Assembly (NCBI GenBank): GCA_021155905.1
Contig: JAJNBG010000004.1
Coordinates: 1-64,000 of the forward strand
DNA from: Bacteroidota bacterium
Lineage (GTDB): Bacteria > Bacteroidota > Bacteroidia > B-17B0 > Aurantibacillaceae
Reading direction: 5' to 3'
DNA: 64,000 nucleotides
Each line of letters starts with the position of its first letter. Positions within the stretch are counted from its first letter, which is position 1. This document shows, piece by piece, positions 11,438-50,639 of this stretch. Both the position numbers and the translations under genes were made by a program. The notes beneath the pieces were generated by a model. The model searched no databases, was not told the origin of the DNA, and saw only the letters and a list, made by a program, of their open reading frames with translations.

Positions 11438-11509
11438 GGCCCGTTCGTCTAGGGGTTAGGACGCGTCCCTTTCACGGACGAAACACGGGTTCGATTCCCG
11501 TACGGGCTA
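11438..11509 (+). tRNA. tRNA-Glu (anticodon TTC)
   Basis: 72 bases fold as a cloverleaf. The acceptor stem is GGCCCGT with ACGGGCT (first pair G-U), the anticodon stem is CGTCC with GGACG around CTTTCAC (anticodon TTC), and the T arm is ACGGG-TTCGATT-CCCGT. CCA is not encoded; the discriminator is A. The 3' half of the T arm and acceptor stem forms the left copy of the prophage attachment core, so the gene is kept intact after integration. Confidence 0.95.
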
Positions 11510-11511
11510 CA
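11496..11511. repeat. Prophage attachment core, left copy (attL)
   Basis: The 16-base word TCCCGTACGGGCTACA, spanning the T-loop end to the tRNA 3' end and two bases beyond, is repeated exactly at 49117-49132. Flanking bases differ on both sides. Confidence 0.92.
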
Positions 11512-13891: not shown

Positions 13892-13948
13892 GGACATAGT
13901 TATACCCCGACCCGAATAATTATTGGGCACAGGGGTTACGCTATGTCT
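13892..13948. repeat. Nested inverted repeat (57 bp) in the control region
   Basis: GACATAG (13893-13899) pairs with CTATGTC (13941-13947). Inside it ACCCC (13904-13908) pairs with GGGGT (13932-13936), and CCC plus the self-complementary AATAATTATT (13915-13924) plus GGG forms the tip. All three layers are in register, giving a long bulged hairpin in DNA or RNA. Confidence 0.75.
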
Positions 13949-14498: not shown

Positions 14499-15239
14499 AT
14501 GTGTTATAATGTTGATAATGCTGATTCAGCTAGAAAGGTAAAGTGGAAAACAAAGAAGCTGGTTTCACCAAAGCCAGTTAATGAAGCTGTATTTCTAGTT
14601 GGTAAGGGTGTTTATCCAGCTATGCATATTATCAAGCAAGAAGAACCAGACCTAGTTGATGTGGCTAATTGGGGACTTATACCATCTAAGATTACAAACC
14701 CAAGTGAAGCACGGGTATGGCGTGAAAATACCCTTAATGCAAGGTGTGAAACTATCTTTGAAAAAACCAGCTTTAAGGGTAACATCTTACCACATCGGTG
14801 TCTAGTTCCTGTATCTGGCTTTTTTGAATGGCGTGACCTTAACGGTGTTAAATACCCACATTATATTACAGCAACCTTTACCGATGTTTTTTATTTAGCT
14901 GGTCTGTATGACTATTGGGTAAATCAAGAAACTGGATTGAAACAAACGACCTTTAGCATCGTTACCACTGATAGTAATAAGTTAATGACCAAGATTCATA
15001 ACCAAAAGAAAAGACAGCCGTTAATGTTGACTGATGAAGATGCTGATAGATGGTTAAAGAATGATTTATCTGAAGGTGATGTACAAGGGTTGATGGTAAA
15101 GACACCAGATGAATTGATGAAAGCACATTCTATACCTCGAATACAACCAAAGGTAACAGATGTGCATTCAGAAAGCCTATTAAAAGAAATTGAATACCCA
15201 GAACTTACTTTTTATGATGCACTTAATGGTGATGATTAA
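14499..15239 (+). CDS. SRAP (HMCES/YedK-type) abasic-site DNA-protein crosslink protein
   Basis: 246 residues. The family forms a covalent thiazolidine link between Cys2 and abasic sites in single-stranded DNA, shielding them. All catalytic positions are present: Cys2 directly after the initiator Met, Asn80 in NARCE, Glu110 in SGFFEW, and His167 in KIHNQKKRQPLML (the IHxRMP motif, here with a changed spacing word). The need for Cys2 fixes this ATG as the start. In the host the gene is normally part of the SOS response; here it is phage cargo, next to early genes, probably protecting phage DNA during replication. Confidence 0.9.
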   Translation: MCYNVDNADSARKVKWKTKKLVSPKPVNEAVFLVGKGVYPAMHIIKQEEPDLVDVANWGLIPSKITNPSEARVWRENTLNARCETIFEKTSFKGNILPHRCLVPVSGFFEWRDLNGVKYPHYITATFTDVFYLAGLYDYWVNQETGLKQTTFSIVTTDSNKLMTKIHNQKKRQPLMLTDEDADRWLKNDLSEGDVQGLMVKTPDELMKAHSIPRIQPKVTDVHSESLLKEIEYPELTFYDALNGDD

Positions 15240-16311: not shown

Positions 16312-17331
16312 ATGGATAGTACTACATTTGAAAAACTACTTCAAAAATCAGAAGGTAGAATTATAGATTTCAAGCGTGAAATGTATGATTTCTCTAATGA
16401 CCCAGAAAAAAAAGAAATACATTCATACGTTAAAGACGTTATAAGTTTCTGTAACACAATAAGAAATGAACCATCATATATAATAGTTGGTGTTAAAGAT
16501 TTAGGTGGTGGTCAACGAGATATGGTAGGATTAGAACACCATATTGATGAAGCAGAGCTACAAGCTAAAGTGTTTAATAAGGTTCATCCAAAACCGCTTT
16601 TCAATTATCATTTAGTTAACCATCATTCTAAGACTTTTGGTGTTTTTGAATTTCCACTATATAAATATGAAATGTTGCTGACTTCAACTGTCAACTACAA
16701 ACAAACTTTAAAAATTGGTACAGCATACTATAGAAATGGAAGTGGTAATGTTGAAATACCATTACTTGAAGCCATTAAGATTAATGATTGGTTGCGTACA
16801 TTGCCAGCACCAGCAGATGAAAATATACAGTTAATTAACAAGCAAAATTTATTAGCTAAGGCAAATGATAATAATACAAAATTATCAAAGGTATTATCAG
16901 AAGTTTTAGCTTTTGCTGAAAACTATAATAAATCTGAACTAAAAGAATTTTGTTTAGAACAAATTGCAGGTATAAAAAAGGATTTTAACAGAGAAAATCT
17001 TTTTTATAGAGGAAGCCAAATTTTCTTTTGTACTGGACACGTTAATCAAATTAATTCCTTTGCAACGATAGGTACAGTTGCTAACTATCTTCAAAATAAT
17101 AACAATTGTTATACCTATAAATTTTTAATGCAGGATTCAATTTCAAACTTAGAATCAAATATATCCCGCACAGAAAATGATAAAGGTTTTGTAAAGATAA
17201 ATTCAACCACATTATCTATAGACCCGAATTTCAAACCTAAAGCCAATATTACTATTTTCATATCCCATAATAATTATATCCAAGTTTATAATGGAATTAG
17301 GCAAGCTTTGATTGAACTCTTGCTTAAATAG
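16312..17331 (+). CDS. AlbA_2 / Schlafen-type putative DNA- or RNA-binding protein
   Basis: 339 residues. Residues 1-150 fit the AlbA_2 (Schlafen, divergent AAA_4) domain: EGRIIDFKREMYDF, KKEIHSYVKDVISFCNTIRN, SYIIVGVKDLGGG, then GVFEFPLYKYEMLL and GTAYYRNGSGNVE, the last being the usual (Y)xRxGsxNxxA-like ending. The rest is helical then mixed and not recognised (SEVLAFAENYNKSELKEFCL, then ITIFISHNNYIQVYNGIRQ). AlbA_2 proteins occur in regulators and in several defence contexts. It is cotranscribed with the membrane/zinc-ribbon protein, away from all structural genes, so I infer phage-borne cargo, possibly superinfection exclusion. The role is not shown by sequence. Confidence 0.65.
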   Translation: MDSTTFEKLLQKSEGRIIDFKREMYDFSNDPEKKEIHSYVKDVISFCNTIRNEPSYIIVGVKDLGGGQRDMVGLEHHIDEAELQAKVFNKVHPKPLFNYHLVNHHSKTFGVFEFPLYKYEMLLTSTVNYKQTLKIGTAYYRNGSGNVEIPLLEAIKINDWLRTLPAPADENIQLINKQNLLAKANDNNTKLSKVLSEVLAFAENYNKSELKEFCLEQIAGIKKDFNRENLFYRGSQIFFCTGHVNQINSFATIGTVANYLQNNNNCYTYKFLMQDSISNLESNISRTENDKGFVKINSTTLSIDPNFKPKANITIFISHNNYIQVYNGIRQALIELLLK

Positions 17332-17455: not shown

Positions 17456-17563
17456 ATGAAAAAATTAATCAGAACATTCAGAATCATTGGTAACATTATA
17501 TTTTTACTTTTATCCGCTGTCGTAGCTTTAATTAAGTATTACAGACCCACCAATAACCAGTAA
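17456..17563 (+). CDS. Small single-span membrane peptide (35 aa)
   Basis: Reads MKKLIRTFRIIGNIIFLLLS then AVVALIKYYRPTNNQ: a basic start, one transmembrane helix and a polar end. It is preceded by a -7 box and its 3' end overlaps the convergent 17528..18103 gene. Small membrane peptides of this size occur in lysis or exclusion roles; no direct evidence here. Confidence 0.4.
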   Translation: MKKLIRTFRIIGNIIFLLLSAVVALIKYYRPTNNQ

Positions 17564-18103
17564 ACTAATACCCAGACCAACACCCAAGATTTTATTTAGT
17601 GTTTCCCTTCGTCTGGCTTTCTTTTCACTCTTATTCAATTCCTTTACAAGCTTATTACTAATTGTGGTCATAGCAGTATATGCTGAATCACACATAAGTA
17701 TTTGGTTATCCTTAATCTGAATCAACCCATTTTGAATACTGTCTTTAACAGCGTAATGATTCAGCGTTGAATCAACTTGTGCTATATAGACACCAGCGGT
17801 TGCTTTTACGCTATCACAAGGTGATATGATGCTGGTGACCTTAATCATCTGTAGAAGTTTATTCTGGGTCTTGGTAAGCGTTTGTTTTGATGCTACCATC
17901 TTACTATTTGATGCAGCAAGTTCATTAACCAAAGAATCATTCACACGGTTGTAATTGGTGGTGTTGGTCTTATAACCAGAATCAATCTTATGAATCTGGG
18001 TCTTGATTCCTGGCACTGGTGATGTTCTATTACACTTATAGGTAAGTGTGAATGTAAGTAATGCTGTTGCTAATACTATAATTGCTGTTTTAAGATTTGA
18101 CAT
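17528..18103 (-). CDS. Coiled-coil protein with N- and C-terminal membrane segments
   Basis: 191 residues. The N-terminus is a signal anchor (TAIIVLATALLTFTLTY, followed by a cysteine at residue 24). The middle is a long helical, coiled-coil-prone stretch with many Asn, Ser and Lys (ELAASNSKMVASKQTLTKTQ). The C-terminus ends in a second hydrophobic helix (ILGVGLGISLLVIGGSVIL) preceded by a basic patch KKARRRE. This layout recalls inner-membrane spanin-like or tail-associated phage proteins, but the position beside the replication gene is odd for a spanin. It overlaps the upstream wHTH gene by 14 bases. Confidence 0.5.
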   Translation of the reverse strand: MSNLKTAIIVLATALLTFTLTYKCNRTSPVPGIKTQIHKIDSGYKTNTTNYNRVNDSLVNELAASNSKMVASKQTLTKTQNKLLQMIKVTSIISPCDSVKATAGVYIAQVDSTLNHYAVKDSIQNGLIQIKDNQILMCDSAYTAMTTISNKLVKELNKSEKKARRRETLNKILGVGLGISLLVIGGSVILN

Positions 18104-18314
18104 TTAAAAATACGGTTGTACGATACTTACCATCAGTATGGGTAAGCTTATTTTCTTTTGTTATATGACCAGCATCAACCAATTCTTTTAGTTGCTTATT
18201 TACTTGGTATTTGCTTAGTGAATATTTAGCAGCAAGTGCAGCTGGTATATATCGGTAATAACCAGCGGTTGATACCTCCGCTAAAAGGGCTATTTGAAAT
18301 GGCGTTTGTGTCAT
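18090..18314 (-). CDS. Small winged helix-turn-helix protein (74 aa)
   Basis: MTQTPFQIALLAEVSTAGYY leads into IPAALAAKYSLSKYQVNKQL, a recognition-helix-like stretch, then KELVDAGHITKENKLTHTDG and a beta wing (KYRTTVFLNV). This is the standard wHTH pattern of small transcription regulators. It lies between the polymerase-like gene and the coiled-coil gene on the same strand and may regulate the replication module. Confidence 0.6.
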   Translation of the reverse strand: MTQTPFQIALLAEVSTAGYYRYIPAALAAKYSLSKYQVNKQLKELVDAGHITKENKLTHTDGKYRTTVFLNVKS

Positions 18315-18402
18315 TAGATAAAGATTATGAATAGGATTATAAATAAGATGATACCGATTGCTTCGTACCCTGTTACTTCAATTTTGAATAGTGTTTTTTT
18401 CA

Positions 18403-19989
18403 TTATGCGATTTGTTTAGTGTTTATTATGTGTTTTAGGATTGGGTGAATGTTCACTTCATCAATCATTTCTGCAACCGTATCAAAACCATCATTATTGA
18501 TGTACTTGATATAGAATTCTGTTATATCTTCTGGGAAACTATGAGTATCAGCTAATAGCCTAAATACAGTCATTATAGATGCCTCTGCTTGAACTATTTC
18601 TTCTTGAATAGGTTCTTGTGTCGTTTCAATTTCACTGGTGCTTAAAATGGCTTTATAGTGTTTTTCAATGGATTTTTTAGATACACCAGATTTAGCTTGA
18701 ATACTTCTAATGGTTATTTTAACACCATCTTCTTTTAATTCTTTTATAGCTAGAGTTATTTTATTGATGGTGTCATCAGTTTTAATCTGATTTTTGTTTT
18801 GTCCTACACCTTGACCTTTTGCACTACATATACACTTGTTGGTTGTATTGTTATCTATTATTGCTTCTTTAATAAGTAGTGCAAAATCATAAGGTGTAGG
18901 ACAAGATGTATGATGAGTTATTGAAGTTGAAAGTGTTCTTTTAAAGAATACATCTGAATTAACATCAATAATTGATTTAACTTCATCAATATCTTTTTCT
19001 AGGATTATTACAGCATCGTGTACTGGTATAACGAATAGACCCTTATTAACTATATCAGTTAAGATATTTGTAATAAAAAATTCAGCTTCTAATTTTTGTA
19101 GGGTTGATGCTTTGGTATCACCATTATCAATAGTCAATAAGAAGTTGTACATCGCTGGGTAAAGCACCTTGAATGCTTCACTATACTTGCTATTAGCTAC
19201 AATCGCTTTGTTATCGTTACAAAGAATGGTATTAAAAAAGGATTCTTTAAACCTGTCTTTATTGGCGTTAAGGTCAACACCCATCTTTTCAGCAAGCCTT
19301 TCATAAAATACACCAGCGAATACATCAGCATTGAATGCTAAATCATTTGGGCAAAGCTGGCTAAGAAAAATTAATTGAGCATTTTTAGCGTCAATCTCTA
19401 CCAAGTTACCCAACTTTGAACATAACTTTCTTCTGTATTTCTTATTTAGATTAGTTAGCGTATGGTGTACACGGCCAGTAGCTGATTGACTTATTCTTGC
19501 TTTGAATATGCTGTTATTGGTGAAGATAACTTCATCTTCAAGTTGAACACCATCATTTCTTAATTCAATAAGTAGTTCTGGTGTTATCACCAATTTTTCA
19601 AGATTGGTTAATATCTGTTTAATCTTTGGGGTAAGCTTAGAAAAATTGTTTTCAATAATGTAATTGATACGATTAATCAATTTCACACTGGTGATAGTAT
19701 AATCAATCAATTGTTTTTTTGAATGTGGTACAAGAACTTTATATGTTAAGAATTGGTAACCACCTTCACGATAATTTGAAAACACTTCAAGTATTCCTAA
19801 TTCAACTAGGGTTGTTCTTAATTGGGTGTAGCTTCTATCACCAAATGTTTTTTTAAGTGCTTGACTGCTTAAGTAAGTACTTTTATTGGTATTCCTTTTT
19901 ATGATAAGGTGGGTGAAGTAAAGAAGTGAATCTTTATCAGGGTGTTCTGATACTAGGTCAAGTATCTCTGTTGTTGTTTTAATTTGCAT
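18403..19989 (-). CDS. Predicted replication protein with family-A DNA polymerase-like palm
   Basis: 528 residues. Residues 1-90 look like a winged-helix region. From about residue 170 it follows the order of family-A polymerase motifs: TGR at 171-173 (like the TGRLSS word of Pol I), motif A Asp200 in LVEIDAKNAQLIFLSQL, a motif-B-like helix with Lys244/Lys248 in NKDRFKESFFNTIL, and motif C His324-Asp325 in VIPVHDAVIILEKDIDEV. The exonuclease domains of Pol I are absent and it is about half that length. Residues 362-397 are encoded by a 108 bp inverted-repeat element. A C-terminal helix-turn-helix follows (VKITIRSIQAKSGVSKKSIE, about residues 417-440). Polymerase-like core between DNA-binding ends suggests an initiator or primase-polymerase for phage replication. 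An exact family is not named here; catalytic activity is inference, since motif C ends HDA rather than HDE. Confidence 0.6.
   Translation of the reverse strand: MQIKTTTEILDLVSEHPDKDSLLYFTHLIIKRNTNKSTYLSSQALKKTFGDRSYTQLRTTLVELGILEVFSNYREGGYQFLTYKVLVPHSKKQLIDYTITSVKLINRINYIIENNFSKLTPKIKQILTNLEKLVITPELLIELRNDGVQLEDEVIFTNNSIFKARISQSATGRVHHTLTNLNKKYRRKLCSKLGNLVEIDAKNAQLIFLSQLCPNDLAFNADVFAGVFYERLAEKMGVDLNANKDRFKESFFNTILCNDNKAIVANSKYSEAFKVLYPAMYNFLLTIDNGDTKASTLQKLEAEFFITNILTDIVNKGLFVIPVHDAVIILEKDIDEVKSIIDVNSDVFFKRTLSTSITHHTSCPTPYDFALLIKEAIIDNNTTNKCICSAKGQGVGQNKNQIKTDDTINKITLAIKELKEDGVKITIRSIQAKSGVSKKSIEKHYKAILSTSEIETTQEPIQEEIVQAEASIMTVFRLLADTHSFPEDITEFYIKYINNDGFDTVAEMIDEVNIHPILKHIINTKQIA
18797..18904. 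repeat. 108 bp inverted-repeat element, copy A (inside the polymerase-like gene)
   Basis: Arms TTGTCCTACACCTT (18799-18812) and its complement (18891-18904), then TTTTGCACTAC (18817-18827) with its complement (18876-18886), separated by 4-base internal loops, close over a 48-base loop. The element is exactly 36 codons and stays in frame in the host gene. A copy with the same arms, loop size and total length lies at 20329-20436. Confidence 0.9.
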
Positions 19990-20036
19990 CTCATTTTATT
20001 CCTGTTTTATGTTATGATTCCTTTTTTTGGTTTTAC

Positions 20037-20102
20037 TTCGGACAGGAACCCACCAGACCGCTAAATCTGATGGGAACCGAAGGAACACTATTGCTAGTGT
20101 TC
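20037..20102 (-). promoter_or_regulatory. Two consecutive hairpins in the leader of the polymerase-like gene
   Basis: TTCGG (20037-20041) pairs with CCGAA (20077-20081) and encloses CCCACCAGA/TCTGATGGG (one mismatch). Directly beside it is a perfect 8 bp hairpin GAACACTA-TTGC-TAGTGTTC (20083-20102). On the minus strand they lie 48-113 bases before the start codon, so they may be part of its 5' leader. Confidence 0.55.
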
Positions 20103-20328
20103 TAATATAAATATGTTGATAGTTGAAGAAAACCAAAAAAGTTTTCAATTCCATCAAAATATAATTAAGGATAATGCAAAAACACCCATAAGTAAATGGT
20201 TGAATTGATATTTCTTAATATTTTTTGCGGAATAGTACCCATTCAAGGGTAGGGTTGACGAGATGAACCCCTTTCTACTGCAAAGATACCGATTTTTTAA
20301 ATAGGGTTCAAGTAGACCACCCAAATAA

Positions 20329-20436
20329 TTTTGTCCTACACCCTGTCATTTTGCACTACATATACACTTGTTGGTGTTCTATCATACTATAGTTACTATT
20401 ATAATAAGTAGTGCAAATCGTAAAGGTGTAGGACAA
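20329..20436. repeat. 108 bp inverted-repeat element, copy B (intergenic)
   Basis: The first 47 bases match copy A at 44 positions and the last 34 at 29; the central 27 bases are unrelated but of equal length. Arms TTTGTCCTACACC (20330-20342) and TTTGCACTAC (20350-20359) pair with 20425-20437 and 20408-20417 over a 48-base loop. Read in the frame used by copy A it contains several stop codons, so protein coding does not explain its conservation. Confidence 0.9.
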
Positions 20437-20676
20437 AGAATATTGTTTAGCATAAACATCGACCCATTTTCTGGTACAGGGGGTACTTTTGGAAAGTGTA
20501 ATAAAGAATTAATGAAACCCGTATACTATGATACAGAAGATTTATAAAGATTATGACGTGATGTCATTAAAGAAACGAGTTAGGCAGAATAATTTTGTAT
20601 GCAAAAATTGAATAGTACCGTTAATCAGATATATTTTTAAATAGCCTAAAACAGAAATACTTCTTTAAGACCGCTG

Positions 20677-20684
20677 TAGCTTTG
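20677..20684 (+). promoter_or_regulatory. -7 box (TAGCTTTG) of the rightward nuclease/sigma genes
   Basis: Exact TAnnTTTG. A TTG codon that opens the downstream frame falls inside this box, so the true start is the ATG at 20760. The transcript would cover the 69-residue protein, the PD-(D/E)XK nuclease and the sigma-like genes. Confidence 0.55.
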
Positions 20685-20759
20685 ATTTTTAGAACACCGC
20701 CCAACAGTCCTTTCAAAATAGAAACAAAAGTGTTATCATATAAAACAAAACCTAATACG

Positions 20760-20969
20760 ATGCTAGAGATACGCAAACGAAGCCCACGCCAACTTACCAC
20801 TTTTGATGTGTTTGACACCAGATACCCAGACCAACCACCAGTATGTGTTCTGGTGACATTCAGAGATTTGATTTACGTTTATGATGGTCATACCACAACC
20901 AACAGAATAGAGGTCATTAGCAACCCTATGAACCTAATTGCTTACTTGGAGTCCATATATTGTAGGTAG
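20760..20969 (+). CDS. Hypothetical phage protein (69 aa)
   Basis: Begins MLEIRKRSPRQLTTFDVFDT and continues with strands PPVCVLVTFRDLIYVYDGHT and a C-terminal helix NLIAYLESIYCR. Start chosen downstream of the promoter box. It is the first gene of the rightward unit leading to the nuclease and sigma genes. No family recognised. Confidence 0.45.
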   Translation: MLEIRKRSPRQLTTFDVFDTRYPDQPPVCVLVTFRDLIYVYDGHTTTNRIEVISNPMNLIAYLESIYCR

Positions 20970-21049
20970 TTTAACCTATTGGAAATTTATTTTCTTCAAA
21001 AGGAGGTTTTTTGCTTTTGTCTGGATATTTATTAGAAATGATAAATATT

Positions 21050-21592
21050 ATGACACATTCAGAAAAACACAAACACTTCACGACTGCATCAATCCGTGAA
21101 AGGTTAATCTTTAAATCAGTTGCTGATGCAAACCCCAATCTTTTTAGTGACGTTATCTATAGTGACCCTGAAGGGTACGATGGTTGGGACGTAATATTTA
21201 TCCTATCTGGTGAAACAAAACCCCGTGTGGTTGAAACTAAGGTACGTAGCAGTACCAGCACCCATTGTGGGTACACCATTCAAGAAGATAAATATCAGTC
21301 TCTAATGGTTTCAGCCTGTACTTATGTACCAACATACATTAACTTCTTTAATGATGATAACCAAATGCTGTTGTGGTCTTTAACAGGTGATACACCAACA
21401 TTTATTGATACGATGTACCAGAATAACAACCATAACCAACAAAGACAAATAAAACTAGCAGCGGATTTACCAGCAACAGCTGCTACCAGATTCAAAGCCA
21501 ACTATGACCTTACAGCCATATACAACAAAGCTGATAAAATATATAACGATAGACTACACCCAGAACACCCAAAGAAATGGAAACGAATTTAA
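21050..21592 (+). CDS. Predicted PD-(D/E)XK-fold endonuclease
   Basis: 180 residues from the chosen ATG. The nuclease signature is visible: GYDGWDVIFI supplies the metal-binding Asp, and RVVETKVRS supplies the ExK strand about 20 residues later, followed by a helix with Gln/Lys (IQEDKYQSLMVS), as in VRR-NUC and resolvase-like members. An upstream TTG (21011 or 21017) follows AGGAGG at 21001-21006, so a longer form is possible. It sits between early and sigma genes and overlaps the sigma gene by 16 bases. Likely roles are recombination, DNA processing or host-DNA degradation; the exact target is unknown. Confidence 0.65.
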   Translation: MTHSEKHKHFTTASIRERLIFKSVADANPNLFSDVIYSDPEGYDGWDVIFILSGETKPRVVETKVRSSTSTHCGYTIQEDKYQSLMVSACTYVPTYINFFNDDNQMLLWSLTGDTPTFIDTMYQNNNHNQQRQIKLAADLPATAATRFKANYDLTAIYNKADKIYNDRLHPEHPKKWKRI

Positions 21593-22221
21593 AAGACCTT
21601 GATGTAAACGATTATAAATACTATGTGAAAAAAATAGCTAATTCCTACCAAGTATCGAACGATGTTAGAACTGAATTAATTCAAGAAGGTTTGATTGGTG
21701 TATATGAAGCAAGTCTAAAATATGACCCAATACACGGTAATAGCTTCATAAGCTTTGCTACAACGTACATCAAGAAAAATATGTCAATATACCTTATGAA
21801 TAACTTAAGGACTGTTAGAGTCCCTTCAAATAAGCTAAGAGCGTTAAGAAAGTACCAAGCGATTGAAGACCCAGATACAGCTGATTTAAGCGAGTTTTCA
21901 AAATCAGACTTACTATTCATCAACTCTAATGGTCATAAACCAGAACTAAGCACTGATGAACCAATTAATGATGAATCTGATTCAACATTACTTGATGTAT
22001 ATCAACCAAGTGATGAAGAAAGACCTGAAATTATTGATAAGATGCTTAAAGCTGTCAATGAACTACCAGAAAATGACAGGTACTTAATCACAGCATATTA
22101 CGGTCTTATTGAAGATAGTAAGACACTTGAAGCAATTGGTCAAGAACAAAACCTTACCAGAGAAAGGATTAGACAAAAGATAGCTGCCATTCAAAAAAAA
22201 CTAAAAGAAATATTAAAATAA
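21577..22221 (+). CDS. Phage-encoded sigma-70 family protein (region 2 and region 4)
   Basis: 214 residues. Region 2 reads DVRTELIQEGLIGVYEASLK, then GNSFISFATTYIKKNMSIYL, the core-binding and -10 recognition part, followed by LRTVRVPSNKLRALRKYQ (region 3-like start). Region 4 ends the protein: LPENDRYLITAYYGLIEDSK then TLEAIGQEQNLTRERIRQKI, the helix-turn-helix that contacts -35 DNA. Pattern resembles primary-like sigma factors without region 1. It lies just before the late genes and is a likely late-gene switch, see the three GTTACAAAA motifs. The 16-base overlap with the nuclease gene implies coupling. Confidence 0.88.
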   Translation: METNLKDLDVNDYKYYVKKIANSYQVSNDVRTELIQEGLIGVYEASLKYDPIHGNSFISFATTYIKKNMSIYLMNNLRTVRVPSNKLRALRKYQAIEDPDTADLSEFSKSDLLFINSNGHKPELSTDEPINDESDSTLLDVYQPSDEERPEIIDKMLKAVNELPENDRYLITAYYGLIEDSKTLEAIGQEQNLTRERIRQKIAAIQKKLKEILK

Positions 22222-22285
22222 TCTGGCTTTTGCTAAAAGTCCAGGTATTTATATTAAACACCATAACAGAAATAAAAAAAACATT

Positions 22286-22492
22286 ATGACCCCAAAAGAA
22301 AAAGAATTCCTTAGACAGCTTAAAGACCTGTTTAATCCAGAACCAGAAGAAAATGAAATCATTAAACTGGCTATCATACTGCAACTGCAAAAAGCCTATG
22401 AAAACCAGCTTTTAATGCAAAGTGACTATAAAAAACACTTCAACCAAATAACAAAAAGTATTAACCCTTTAACCGATAATGAAAATATCTAA
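22286..22492 (+). CDS. Hypothetical phage protein (68 aa)
   Basis: A helical, charged protein (MTPKEKEFLRQLKDLFNPEP, then NEIIKLAIILQLQKAYENQL). It lies between the two sigma-like genes and overlaps the second by 14 bases. Position suggests a regulator or anti-sigma-like partner, but no motif shows it. Confidence 0.5.
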   Translation: MTPKEKEFLRQLKDLFNPEPEENEIIKLAIILQLQKAYENQLLMQSDYKKHFNQITKSINPLTDNENI

Positions 22493-23003
22493 TGACTGGA
22501 ATAAAATTGATATAGAAAAAATCATCAACCAAGACCAACAAGAAATAAATAAACTCTATCAAATCACAAAGACCTATATTATGTACAAATTGGGTAATGA
22601 TGAAGAACTATTTCACGATTGGTTAATGTGTGTAATAGCAAAGATTGAAAACTTCAACCCAAAGAAAGGTAAGTTTAGTAGTTGGGCTACCAAGATAGCA
22701 GAACATAAGCTTAAGCTTACAAAGAAGAAAAAAGCAAGAACAATACATCTAATAAGCTACGATAACACCACCATCAATACCGATGATTCACAATTAAGCT
22801 TTCTTGAAGTCAATAATAACACAGTTGATTATGGTGAATTTAGTATTGAACAAGCCGAACACTTAGAAGAAAAACTTAGCACACTACCTACAGAAGACCA
22901 GACCTTCATCAGCGATTACATCAACAGGAATACCACACGTGACCCAAAGACCAGAATGAAGTTTAGTAGGTTGATTACAAAGCTAAAGAACAGCGAACAT
23001 TAA
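22479..23003 (+). CDS. Second sigma-70-like protein (ECF-like)
   Basis: 174 residues. The region-2-like part reads NDEELFHDWLMCVIAKIENF, then PKKGKFSSWATKIAEHKLKL (compare FKGEsxFxTWlxxIAxnxxxd in ECF sigma factors). The region-4-like part is LEEKLSTLPTEDQTFISDYI then TRDPKTRMKFSRLITKLKN, a shortened helix-turn-helix. It ends seven bases before the first late-promoter motif. Together with the 21577 protein it makes a tandem pair of sigma-like proteins. Region 4 is degenerate, so it may need a partner. Confidence 0.7.
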   Translation: MKISNDWNKIDIEKIINQDQQEINKLYQITKTYIMYKLGNDEELFHDWLMCVIAKIENFNPKKGKFSSWATKIAEHKLKLTKKKKARTIHLISYDNTTINTDDSQLSFLEVNNNTVDYGEFSIEQAEHLEEKLSTLPTEDQTFISDYINRNTTRDPKTRMKFSRLITKLKNSEH

Positions 23004-47591: not shown

Positions 47592-48896
47592 TTATATATC
47601 TAGTTTATCCATCATACCGTCAAGGCTTTCAACGTTGAGTTCTTCAAGATAACGCTGGGTCACCTTAATATCTTTATGACCAAGGGCTTTACTAATGGTT
47701 TCAATATCATTAGTTGATTTTTGTACAGCTGATGCGAAACTATGACGACCTATATGTGTGGTAATTTTTTTAGAAATACAAGCATCATCAGCTATTTCTT
47801 TTAGTAAGCTATTTATATATGATGTTTTACGACCAATTTCTTTTTTGAATTCCCTTTTAGTGAATGTAAATACAGCTGGTGGTAAAAAAGGAAAAATTAA
47901 ATCATCTGGTTTTGAATTTGGCTTAACATATAAATCAAGGGTAGCTTGAATCTTTGGTGTTATCTTATAGCTTTTAAGAGTAAAACCAGTACTACCTTTT
48001 TTCATATTATATGTGATACGACCATTAAGGATATTTTTAACCCTCATTGAAATAGTGTCTTCAACCCTAAGACCAGCTAAACGTACTGAAAACATAAATG
48101 CCTTTTGAACGTTGAACTTTGCGGTGTATGGCTCGTATGGTTCATTTTCAAATAATTCTAGTTCATCTTGGGTTAACCGTTCTTTATATTTCTCTACTAT
48201 AACAGGCATAGTATAGCTTTTAAATGGGTATATATCGCTGGTGATAATCTCTAAGTCTTCAATAGCATAGTTGTTTATACGTCTAAGACGTTTCATATTA
48301 GTGTGTACACTAGAATCACTTGCTGGTTCATCACCATTGATTACCTTAAAAAGATATTTTTCAAAACTCTTCAAGGTGTTTTTATCCATATCTTCAAATT
48401 CAGTTGTTACTGGTAACCCTTCTTTTTCTAAGAAACCAGCAAAATGACCCTTGGTAGTGATAAAGCCTTTTTCGGTAGGGTAGTTATCATCTGCATTTAA
48501 TTCATCAATCATTTTTTGAAATATGCTTAGAACGTCTTTTTTTACCGTACCATCTTTAACAGCCTTTACTAAGAATTCTTTCTTGATATTGGGTTGTGAT
48601 TCCTTTTTTGCTTTATAGGTTGATTTGTAATCTGTAAGCTTATCATCCAATTCTTTGTTCTTATAAGCATTTTCTTTGTCTTTATTATTGACCCATTTTT
48701 GGGGTATGACCACACGTTTGCTATTATTACCCTTGGTGACCACCGTCCCAAAATGTTCATTTTTACAGTAAATCTCTGTTTTGACCCTCTGTTTTTTCCC
48801 ATTTTCGGTTATGACCAGTAGTATCTCGTGAACACCTTCACGGTTTGGTCTTGGGTTTAATTCGTACCTAAATGATATGTCTTTCTTCTTTTTCAT
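47592..48896 (-). CDS. Tyrosine-type site-specific integrase
   Basis: 434 residues. The catalytic set is complete: Arg277 (RLAGLRVEDT), His381 and Arg384 (HIGRHSFAS), His407 (GHKD) and nucleophile Tyr416 (TQRYL). The N-terminal ~100 residues with AIVT-like strands (YELNPRPNREGVHEILLVIT) are an arm-binding domain, and residues about 105-215 the SAM-like core-binding domain. It inserts the phage into tRNA-Glu at the 16 bp core; the gene lies directly inside attR. The size and Phage_int_SAM_5-type layout are usual for Bacteroidota elements. Confidence 0.93.
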   Translation of the reverse strand: MKKKKDISFRYELNPRPNREGVHEILLVITENGKKQRVKTEIYCKNEHFGTVVTKGNNSKRVVIPQKWVNNKDKENAYKNKELDDKLTDYKSTYKAKKESQPNIKKEFLVKAVKDGTVKKDVLSIFQKMIDELNADDNYPTEKGFITTKGHFAGFLEKEGLPVTTEFEDMDKNTLKSFEKYLFKVINGDEPASDSSVHTNMKRLRRINNYAIEDLEIITSDIYPFKSYTMPVIVEKYKERLTQDELELFENEPYEPYTAKFNVQKAFMFSVRLAGLRVEDTISMRVKNILNGRITYNMKKGSTGFTLKSYKITPKIQATLDLYVKPNSKPDDLIFPFLPPAVFTFTKREFKKEIGRKTSYINSLLKEIADDACISKKITTHIGRHSFASAVQKSTNDIETISKALGHKDIKVTQRYLEELNVESLDGMMDKLDI

Positions 48897-49103: not shown

Positions 49104-49116
49104 ATGTTAAAAATAG

Positions 49117-49132
49117 TCCCGTACGGGCTACA
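49117..49132. repeat. Prophage attachment core, right copy (attR)
   Basis: TCCCGTACGGGCTACA, identical to 11496-11511. It is the displaced 3' end of the original tRNA-Glu gene; bacterial DNA resumes after it. Confidence 0.92.
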
Positions 49133-49178: not shown

Positions 49179-49503
49179 TTTATGCAAAAGCGAGCAGAAA
49201 GCGTGCGTTCGTGCGAAGCGTTGCGTGAAACAAAAAACCAATTCGAAGTATTGAGTTTTGTTATTTCAGGATGAAACCGGAGGGAAGCAGCGCAGCTGAA
49301 TCCCGTTTTTTTAATTTTTACGGGTGACAAACTATTATAGAAGTTAGAAGTTGTTCTATTTTAGGATGAGACGGGATTGGAAAAATGACCGTTTAATTCA
49401 AGAAATTCATCGTTGAATTGAATTAATTTCTTGGTAGTTCAAAAAATTGTATTAATTTTATTGACAAGGTTCTTGGTTCCGCTAATCTTTTGAATGAAAT
49501 GAA
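49179..49503. other. Non-coding stretch after the prophage
   Basis: About 325 bases of bacterial DNA without a convincing gene. Its last 63 bases (49441-49503) are the promoter-side repeat shared with 50370-50432. Otherwise I see nothing distinctive. Confidence 0.5.
49441..49503 (+). repeat. Upstream repeat of the small paralogous genes, copy 1
   Basis: Nearly identical to 50370-50432, including the stretch ATTAATTTTATTGA, AAGGTTCTTGGTTCCGCTAA and TCTTTT. Both copies end at the start of a paralogous small gene, so promoter and gene were duplicated together. Confidence 0.8.
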
Positions 49504-49836
49504 ATGCGATTAAACAATTACACTACCTCTGAGCTTGTTCAGAAAATTGGACAGCTTGATGAAAGGTATGTTGAACTGAAGAAAATTACCAAATCATTAA
49601 ACTGTCCGAATGCAAAAGCTACTTTGCAAATTCAATTGACGGTTTATAAAAACAGCAAGGCTTTAATTCTTGAAGAATTAATTAGAAGACAGCCTGAACT
49701 TAATTTTGATATAGAGATTCAAAGTAGTTCATCAGATTGTTTAGGGTCAAGTCCTGTTCATTCCTTACCCGCGCCCACAGCTGTTCATCCTAAAATTCAA
49801 ACTCAAAGAAATCCTGCAAACCAGCTGGAACCTTGA
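49504..49836 (+). CDS. Small helical protein, paralogue 1 (110 aa)
   Basis: The first ~65 residues (MRLNNYTTSELVQKIGQLDE, then RYVELKKITKSLNCPNAKAT, QIQLTVYKNSKALILEELI) are shared with the genes at 49936 and 50433. The extra ~45 residues (SSSSDCLGSSPVHSLPAPTA) look like a low-complexity extension, perhaps from loss of a stop codon. A two-helix protein with a conserved 'TTxELVxKIxQLDxRY' start. Family and role unknown. Confidence 0.55.
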   Translation: MRLNNYTTSELVQKIGQLDERYVELKKITKSLNCPNAKATLQIQLTVYKNSKALILEELIRRQPELNFDIEIQSSSSDCLGSSPVHSLPAPTAVHPKIQTQRNPANQLEP

Positions 49837-49935
49837 TTTTTGAAGTAAAAAGTGAATTAAATACAAGTTTATTTTCAGGGGAAAAATTTAATTTTATATT
49901 AAGGTTTGTCTTTGATAATCATTAGAATTGAATGA

Positions 49936-50139
49936 ATGCGTTTGGATAATTTCACCACAGCGGAATTAGTTGAAAAAATATTGCAGCTTGATGACAGGTA
50001 TCAATCGCTTAGGAAAGTAATGAAAAATATAAAAAATCAGGATGCCAGAGCAACTCTGAAAATTCAATTGGATGTTTATAAGCTTACTAAGGTTCTAATT
50101 CTTCAGGAAATAAGTAAGAGAAAAGAAACGGAATCTTAA
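49936..50139 (+). CDS. Small helical protein, paralogue 2 (67 aa)
   Basis: MRLDNFTTAELVEKILQLDD, then RYQSLRKVMKNIKNQDARAT, KIQLDVYKLTKVLILQEISK. It is the most diverged of the three paralogues and its upstream DNA is only weakly like the other two copies. Conservation of the TTxELVxKIxQLDxRY pattern after much drift shows that the family is under selection. Confidence 0.6.
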   Translation: MRLDNFTTAELVEKILQLDDRYQSLRKVMKNIKNQDARATLKIQLDVYKLTKVLILQEISKRKETES

Positions 50140-50432
50140 TTTCATATTTAGTGATAAGAATCAAAGTGATCCATAAGGATGTACAGGTGCAAATCTTCTT
50201 CAAATTTTGAATCTTATACCCATTTTCCATCCTGGAAACAAATTCAAAGAAGTCTGGTATTCAAGAGGGACTTTACTTGAAAAAAGCTGTTCATCGTTTA
50301 GTATTAATGTATTGCCACCTGGTTCAAAAGCTACAAGTGATTAAAGATGAATTAAATATCAGGTGTTTTAAAAAATTATATTAATTTTATTGATAAGGTT
50401 CTTGGTTCCGCTAATCTTTTTAAATGAAATGA
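50140..50432. other. Spacer with the second upstream repeat
   Basis: The gap of 293 bases holds no convincing gene. Bases 50370-50432 are the second copy of the repeat that precedes 49504. The rest contains no hairpin or motif that I recognise. Confidence 0.5.
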
Positions 50433-50639
50433 ATGCGTTTAAACAATTACACCACCTCTGAACTTGTACAGAAAATTGGACAGCTTGATGAAAGGTATGT
50501 TTCACTAAAGAAAATTACCAAGAACATCGTTTGTCCGGATGCAAAAGCAACTTTACAAATACAGTTGACCGTATATAAAACCAGCAAGCTTTTAATCCTT
50601 GAAGAATTAAGCAAACGTCAGTTGAAACTTGATCTTTAA
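50433..50639 (+). CDS. Small helical protein, paralogue 3 (68 aa)
   Basis: MRLNNYTTSELVQKIGQLDE then RYVSLKKITKNIVCPDAKAT, almost identical to paralogue 1 over 60 residues but ending at EELSKRQLKLDL. Both DNA and protein show that it and paralogue 1 arose by a recent duplication of about 130 to 270 bases including the upstream region. Confidence 0.6.
   Translation: MRLNNYTTSELVQKIGQLDERYVSLKKITKNIVCPDAKATLQIQLTVYKTSKLLILEELSKRQLKLDL

Follow-up and report, generated by a model that had tools for sequence, protein, structure and literature searches.

An inverted-repeat element of 108 bp, present once inside a polymerase-like replication gene (rep) of a Bacteroidota prophage and once in the gap upstream of it, probably represents the DNA recognition region of the mobile element's own replication protein (Rep), most likely its replication origin, a reading to which a probability of about 0.58 is assigned. 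The window analysed here comprises the opening 64 kb of a contig of 181,779 bases.

Architecture of the two elements

The inner element (18797-18904) is located inside rep, which is encoded on the minus strand, and extends from the third base of codon 362 to the second base of codon 398. The outer element (20329-20436) lies in the non-coding gap upstream of rep. In the original prediction two copies of 108 bp had been placed at these coordinates, and both were recovered there with equal size. The conserved loop start (ATATACACTTGTTGGT) and the length of the inner copy, 36 codons, were also verified, while the residues first given for it (362-397) were about right. In the corresponding frame of the outer copy the predicted stops are present (two TGA and one TAG).

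Both copies have the same orientation and thus form direct repeats, with a start-to-start distance of 1532 bases and identity at 85 of 108 positions. The 23 differences are confined to the arm spacers (element positions 15-20 and 90-94) and the centre (48-73), and none of them falls in the boxes. They are not adenine-specific, and repeats of a diversity-generating retroelement were rejected on this basis. Each copy is an inverted repeat with arms of 33-34 bases, which are 82-85% complementary, and a centre of 40 bases. Read inwards, all four window arms display the pattern TTGTCCTACACC-N8-TTGCACTAC, the two parts of which are called box A and box B. In the inner copy, the left box A (TTGTCCTACACC) occupies 18799-18810 and the left box B (TTGCACTAC with the loop-side extension ATATACACTTGTTGGT) 18819-18843, both on the plus strand; the right arm (18876-18904, minus strand) contains box A at 18893-18904 and box B at 18876-18884. 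The outer copy shows left box A at 20331-20342 and left box B with the conserved extension at 20351-20375 (plus strand), and a right arm with box A and box B at 20408-20436 (minus strand). When boxes A and B are read in the same direction, TTGNNCTAC is common to both with a period of 20 bases in the four window arms, a weak signal (shuffle p of 0.04 for one arm).

Folding of the plus strand as single-stranded DNA gave z values of -7.0 and -6.1 for the two window copies, and none of 200 shuffles folded as well. The AT content of the centre (72.5%) is slightly higher than that of the prophage (66.7%). A search of the region 17500-22500 against Rfam returned no match near the gathering score; four weak matches to microRNA families, far below that score, were taken as generic hairpin hits.

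The rep gene and its product

The gene rep (18403-19989, minus strand) encodes a protein of 528 residues with a TV-Pol-like (superfamily A polymerase-like) core and a C-terminal HTH, for which no Pfam match above the curated cut-off and no PHROG match were obtained. The polymerase core (residues 165-361; 18907-19497, minus strand) comprises R173, D200 (motif A), K248 (fingers) and H324-D325 (motif C). Across 12 homologues R173, D200 and D325 are invariant, and R186, K248 and H324 are conserved at 90% or more. The set of residues by which TV-Pols are recognised is present, namely the template arginine, the two catalytic aspartates and the lysine of the fingers motif RxxxK. In hhalign comparisons of the Rep profile with PolA domains from 20 genomes of the phylum the motifs were colinear (P 0.00036-0.001), at a probability of only 21-37%; Rep against one PolA sequence gave P 0.13-0.16, and PDB profile searches produced nothing significant. 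By its sequence, Rep resembles TV-Pols, akin to the superfamily A polymerases of mobile elements, and its core may act as a primase. Primase-polymerase activity was predicted for TV-Pols by Iyer et al. (2008), with adjoining genes for resolvases, integrases and restriction-modification (PMC2579912), and the relative CcPol, together with its partner MP, has been reported to prime DNA synthesis (PMC10061031).

The structure model of Rep reached a mean pLDDT of 47 without any Foldseek match at E ≤ 0.001, and it was used for the local HTH and linker only. The stretch encoded by the element is modelled as disordered (pLDDT 22-23) and followed by the HTH at 78-79; the palm just before it is also modelled poorly. 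The HTH consists of three helices (residues 406-451; 18637-18774, minus strand) directly after the element-coded linker, and its region gave a weak match to DUF6262, below the curated cut-off. At the N-terminus, a winged-helix-like region (residues 6-85; 19735-19974, minus strand) is suggested by a low-confidence part of the model (pLDDT about 40-55) and by weak Foldseek matches to winged-helix regulators.

Before rep, 18 bases from the outer element, a match (TTG...TATCTTTG; 20281-20311, minus strand) was found to the promoter consensus of the Bacteroidota type. The same pattern matches 15 times in the 64-kb window, both strands included, and scans for sigma-70 promoters and terminators gave no excess over shuffles. 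A hairpin with two predicted stems is present in the rep leader (20036-20082, minus strand), about 45 bases before the gene. It is alike in the window (z of -4.6) and in the related locus L039 (-2.3), and in L022 (the same locus as L037, below; -2.9) the inner stem forms while the predicted outer pairing differs. Such a hairpin may serve to control rep at the RNA level.

Relatives carrying the element

When Rep was searched in 395 genomes of the class, matches were obtained in nine, its own included. One of these was close, with 43% identity and the same inverted repeat in the gene. An exact scan for the left arm across genome contigs of 84,980 species gave three stretches (L037, L039 and L038), all of which are element loci. 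The carriers besides the window are three Bacteroidota MAGs, each with the same C-terminal HTH. In L037, from a Crocinitomicaceae MAG, and in L039 the element lies inside rep at the same place, and the Rep proteins are 42-43% identical to that of the window. The prophage's host belongs to the class of the Crocinitomicaceae MAG and hence to Bacteroidota. With 90% identity between them over 3.4 kb, L037 and L039 were considered near-duplicates, which leaves three independent lineages plus a near-duplicate. L022, L037, L042, L053 and L055 belong to one genome (identity was checked for L022 and L037, the rest being assigned by contig and position).

In L038 the coding sequence of a different TV-Pol stops about 44 bases ahead of the element, which lies there inside a separate open frame that runs on into the same HTH and has as its first usual start a GTG inside the element. 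The HTH part in this genome matches positions 343-448 of the rep profile (E 3.5e-33), beside the different TV-Pol core (E 2.1e-10), and the homology between L038 and L039 spans element and HTH and stops at the upstream TV-Pol. Because two relatives have the element inside the gene at the same place and one has it behind a different TV-Pol, element and HTH seem to travel between TV-Pols as a cassette. In L038 the upstream TV-Pol gene and the element/HTH open frame, which are in different frames, also share positions 1253-1275 at the end of the former; coupling or frameshifting could join the two.

In its own assembly of 4.06 Mb, the exact pattern TTGTCCTACACC-N(4-12)-TTGCACTAC occurs only at the four window arms, and it occurs in none of the 86 other genomes of the family (1 of 87 in total). 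The genomes of L037, L038 and L039, which are MAGs and possibly incomplete, contain one element each by the exact arm pattern. Among viral contigs, the element was found only on one IMG/VR contig, whose sequence does not differ from the window along the 12,030 bases compared and which probably derives from the same metagenome; its three entries (L009, L014 and L019) were not counted as independent. Single-arm matches on two viral contigs (L040 and L041) lie in other genes and were judged to be chance. A tblastn search with Rep yielded three huge-phage records (28-29%) among phage records and none among plasmid records. By blastn, the outer element had no match in phage records, and three matches of 22-33 bases between plasmids and the centre of the inner element (E 0.07 or worse) were dismissed. 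A search of the open-access literature by title and abstract returned no description of such an element in a TV-Pol gene.

Each of the four prophages or stretches carries recombinase genes, as expected of TV-Pol mobile elements. The window has a tyrosine integrase and L037 a large serine recombinase beside rep; both types are present on L076, the contig to which L038 belongs, and the surroundings of L039 (L077) encode a tyrosine integrase and a small resolvase. Only in L037 does the recombinase adjoin rep, the distance elsewhere being about 4 to 28 kb. Type I restriction-modification genes are found next to rep in L037 and L039. No terminase, portal or capsid family was detected among the 20 scanned ORFs of L037, L076 and L077.

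TV-Pol loci outside the element group

No comparable repeat inside the gene was found in 10 other TV-Pol loci. In eight of them the protein continues for 29-64 residues beyond the HD motif, and in the other two for longer (152 residues in L012, 103 in L029). Towards the 3' end of the gene, the top-scoring repeat lay within the shuffle range in nine loci, and in the tenth (L026) the repeat lies outside the gene. L011 and L028 were missed by the motif filter, hence 10 non-family loci in this 3'-end comparison and 12 in the other survey. The more distant TV-Pols are devoid of the element-coded linker and the HTH. The original prediction would have been abandoned if homologues always contained residues 362-397 with no hairpin in their DNA; this was not seen, the two closest homologues having both the residues and the hairpin.

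Two further repeats were observed in this group. L026 contains a perfect inverted repeat of 26 bp with a loop of 28 bases (1025-1104), about 330 bases behind the TV-Pol gene, which scored 30 compared with a maximum of 12.5 in 15 shuffles and is possibly a separate pRN1-type stem-loop origin. On a 7.6-kb contig, L012 shows an inverted repeat of 18 bp with one mismatch (163-200) just before the TV-Pol start.

Conservation of the element at the DNA level

The string TTTTGCACTACATATACAC is invariant in all five elements (the two of the window and those of L037, L038 and L039). Along the rep genes of the window and L037, nucleotide identity per 30-codon block is 0.43-0.66, blocks with fewer than 10 aligned codons being left out. 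The frame of box A is kept across the window and its relatives. For box B in the sense direction (GTAGTGCAA), the window gene uses frame 1, and L037, L039 and L038 use frame 0. From A to B, the period amounts to 20 in the window (both copies, both arms), and to 21 in L037 and L039 (both arms) and in the left arm of L038. In the latter element the right box B is degenerate and the left one invariant. Because the frame of box B differs between the window and its relatives, and because the non-coding outer copy keeps every box, it is concluded with high confidence that the element is conserved as DNA and not as protein. The spacers pair between the arms at 13 of 34 positions (0.38, counted without L039 as a near-copy of L037), compared with 0.347 expected from composition. 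Since pairing of the spacers does not exceed the level set by composition, and L038 has a degenerate right box B, the sequence of the boxes seems to matter more than the hairpin.

The prophage

The prophage (about 37.6 kb; 11495-49131) is bounded by two copies of a 16-base core, at 11495-11510 and 49116-49131, the first of which forms the last 16 bases of a tRNA-Glu gene (11438-11510). Between the cores are located genes for a tyrosine integrase (47592-48896), terminase, portal, head protease, tail sheath, tape measure and baseplate, and the terminase genes start 2.6 kb from the outer element. Pfam or PHROGs scans of 38 prophage ORFs revealed no helicase, and thus none of the D5-like type that is a frequent partner of TV-Pols; the result is not decisive, since TV-Pols without helicase also appear in the 2008 paper (PMC2579912). 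Along the prophage, cumulative GC skew is lowest at 13913, away from both elements.

A terminase search for sister phages among viral contigs led back to the IMG/VR contig already described and to no other; 812 phage records were matched, all below 60% identity, and within the family distant matches were found in four other genomes (5 of 87, its own included). Other features of the region are direct repeats of 105 and 174 bases at 49419-50636, just outside the right end of the prophage, Schlafen AlbA_2-type and SRAP proteins in the left arm (16312-17331 and 14499-15239), and two sigma-70-like proteins close together before the terminase genes (21577-22221 and 22479-23003).

A candidate origin and its proposed recognition by Rep

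The site lies between polymerase core and HTH, seems to move with the HTH and consists of facing box pairs around a short centre. These features point most readily to a region bound by the HTH or by Rep as a whole, and hence to a probable origin. One of the two models in the original prediction was an origin of the lambda type, located in part within the gene of its initiator. This proposal gains in likelihood from the identical place of the element in the genes of two relatives and the position directly behind a TV-Pol in the third, from the conservation of the DNA across a change of frame, from the place of the linker next to the HTH, and from the recombinase genes on each of the mobile elements. 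It is weakened by the GC skew minimum lying elsewhere and by a centre only slightly richer in AT, as well as by the lack of a helicase in the 38 scanned ORFs, the few independent lineages, the low confidence of the structure model and the hhalign probability of 21-37%.

Rep binding, strand opening, priming, origin activity and autoregulation are inferred along the following lines. The HTH (or winged helix) of Rep would bind the two facing box pairs on either side of a short centre, and this binding would help to open the centre. The polymerase core, placed on the exposed strand, could then prime synthesis. The linker presumably tolerates changed sequence, so that the gene can carry the site in frame. 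At the outer copy, just upstream of the predicted rep promoter, Rep may sense or repress its own gene; alternatively this copy could be a second origin or a handcuffing site. From its location, the outer copy is more likely a regulatory or second site.

The boxes could instead be regulatory sites for Rep or its HTH that play no part in an origin, the outer copy acting at the rep promoter and the inner one by looping or as an internal promoter or start for a separate HTH protein. The 18 bases between the outer copy and the promoter match are in line with this, and so is the separate HTH frame of L038 with its possible GTG start inside the element. However, L037, L038 and L039 yielded a single element by the exact arm pattern, near the 3' end of the polymerase gene or behind it, and none before rep, a poor spot for promoter control, and such a purely regulatory role is considered unlikely. 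Even less is to be expected of a folded hairpin, in mRNA or exposed single-stranded DNA, being what is recognised, either for priming as in pRN1 or for control of translation. All five elements fold strongly as plus-strand DNA (z of -4.2 to -8.9 against shuffles), and the spacing from A to B is equal on both sides in four of the five, but the near-chance pairing of the spacers, the degenerate right box B of L038 beside an invariant left one and the Rfam result for 17500-22500 all speak against it.

Paired boxes with a fixed spacer also recall recombinase sites, and both the recombinase genes on all four prophages or stretches and the terminase genes 2.6 kb from the outer copy would suit a site of recombination or packaging (att, resolvase site, cos or pac). 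Yet the sets of recombinases differ among the window, L037, L076 and L077, the att core of the prophage is at tRNA-Glu, and terminase, portal and capsid are absent from the 20 scanned ORFs of the relatives, which makes this function very improbable. Rickettsia palindromic elements (RPEs) are in-frame palindromes in coding genes with many dispersed copies at varied sites. The RPE-like palindrome of the original prediction (or a MITE-like one), inserted in frame and again upstream, shares with them the in-frame palindrome and has a second copy nearby, but it is hardly credible any more, the element being at a fixed site, once per relative genome and twice in its own, always tied to the rep-type gene or its HTH and with no scattered copies by the exact pattern or with up to one mismatch.

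Comparison with known systems

The favoured reading, an origin recognised by Rep, has several partial precedents. The origin of lambda lies in the middle of gene O and consists of four 19-bp iterons recognised by the initiator (PMC3985674). The element resembles it in having repeat sites, kept at the DNA level, inside a putative initiator gene, and differs by its two facing box pairs and a polymerase-like Rep, for which binding is inferred. In pRN1, a stem-loop 3' of the prim-pol gene is required (PMC4234260). Both systems have an inverted repeat of about 100 bases associated with the gene for a polymerase that primes synthesis (putatively so for Rep) and has a DNA-binding domain at its C-terminus, a winged helix in pRN1. 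The stem-loop of pRN1 is located outside the gene and is conserved in shape and not in sequence, whereas here the box sequence is kept and the spacers pair at chance level.

SaPI origins and the putative SCC origin are situated downstream of a helicase gene (PMC7581432). These integrated mobile elements (SCC with CcPol-MP and Cch2) likewise combine a primase or TV-Pol with an origin that bears repeats and closely follows the replication gene; the difference is that a helicase (Rep or Cch2) recognises the origin outside the gene (PMC7581432, PMC10061031), and no helicase was found in the scanned prophage ORFs. With the TV-Pol family of Iyer et al. (2008), Rep shares the residues of the catalytic core, an extra N-terminal part, and recombinase and restriction-modification neighbours, while the C-terminal HTH tail and the embedded element have no mention in the available part of that paper (PMC2579912).

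Origins inside or right behind initiator genes are already known, and by this comparison the element in a TV-Pol gene would be a variant of that arrangement. As a tentative extension, phages and islands of Bacteroidota may possess a class of self-contained, helicase-free replicons, in which a TV-Pol-HTH gene holds its own origin, origin and HTH move between TV-Pols as a cassette, and the boxes are free to change frame. The available text of the TV-Pol papers makes no statement on how such elements choose their start site, except for the SCC case, where it is read by a helicase. With a short and precise cis site linked to a DNA-binding domain, this question would become directly testable. The element also offers a clean case of overlapping codes, in which a DNA signal is kept letter for letter while its reading as protein changes frame.
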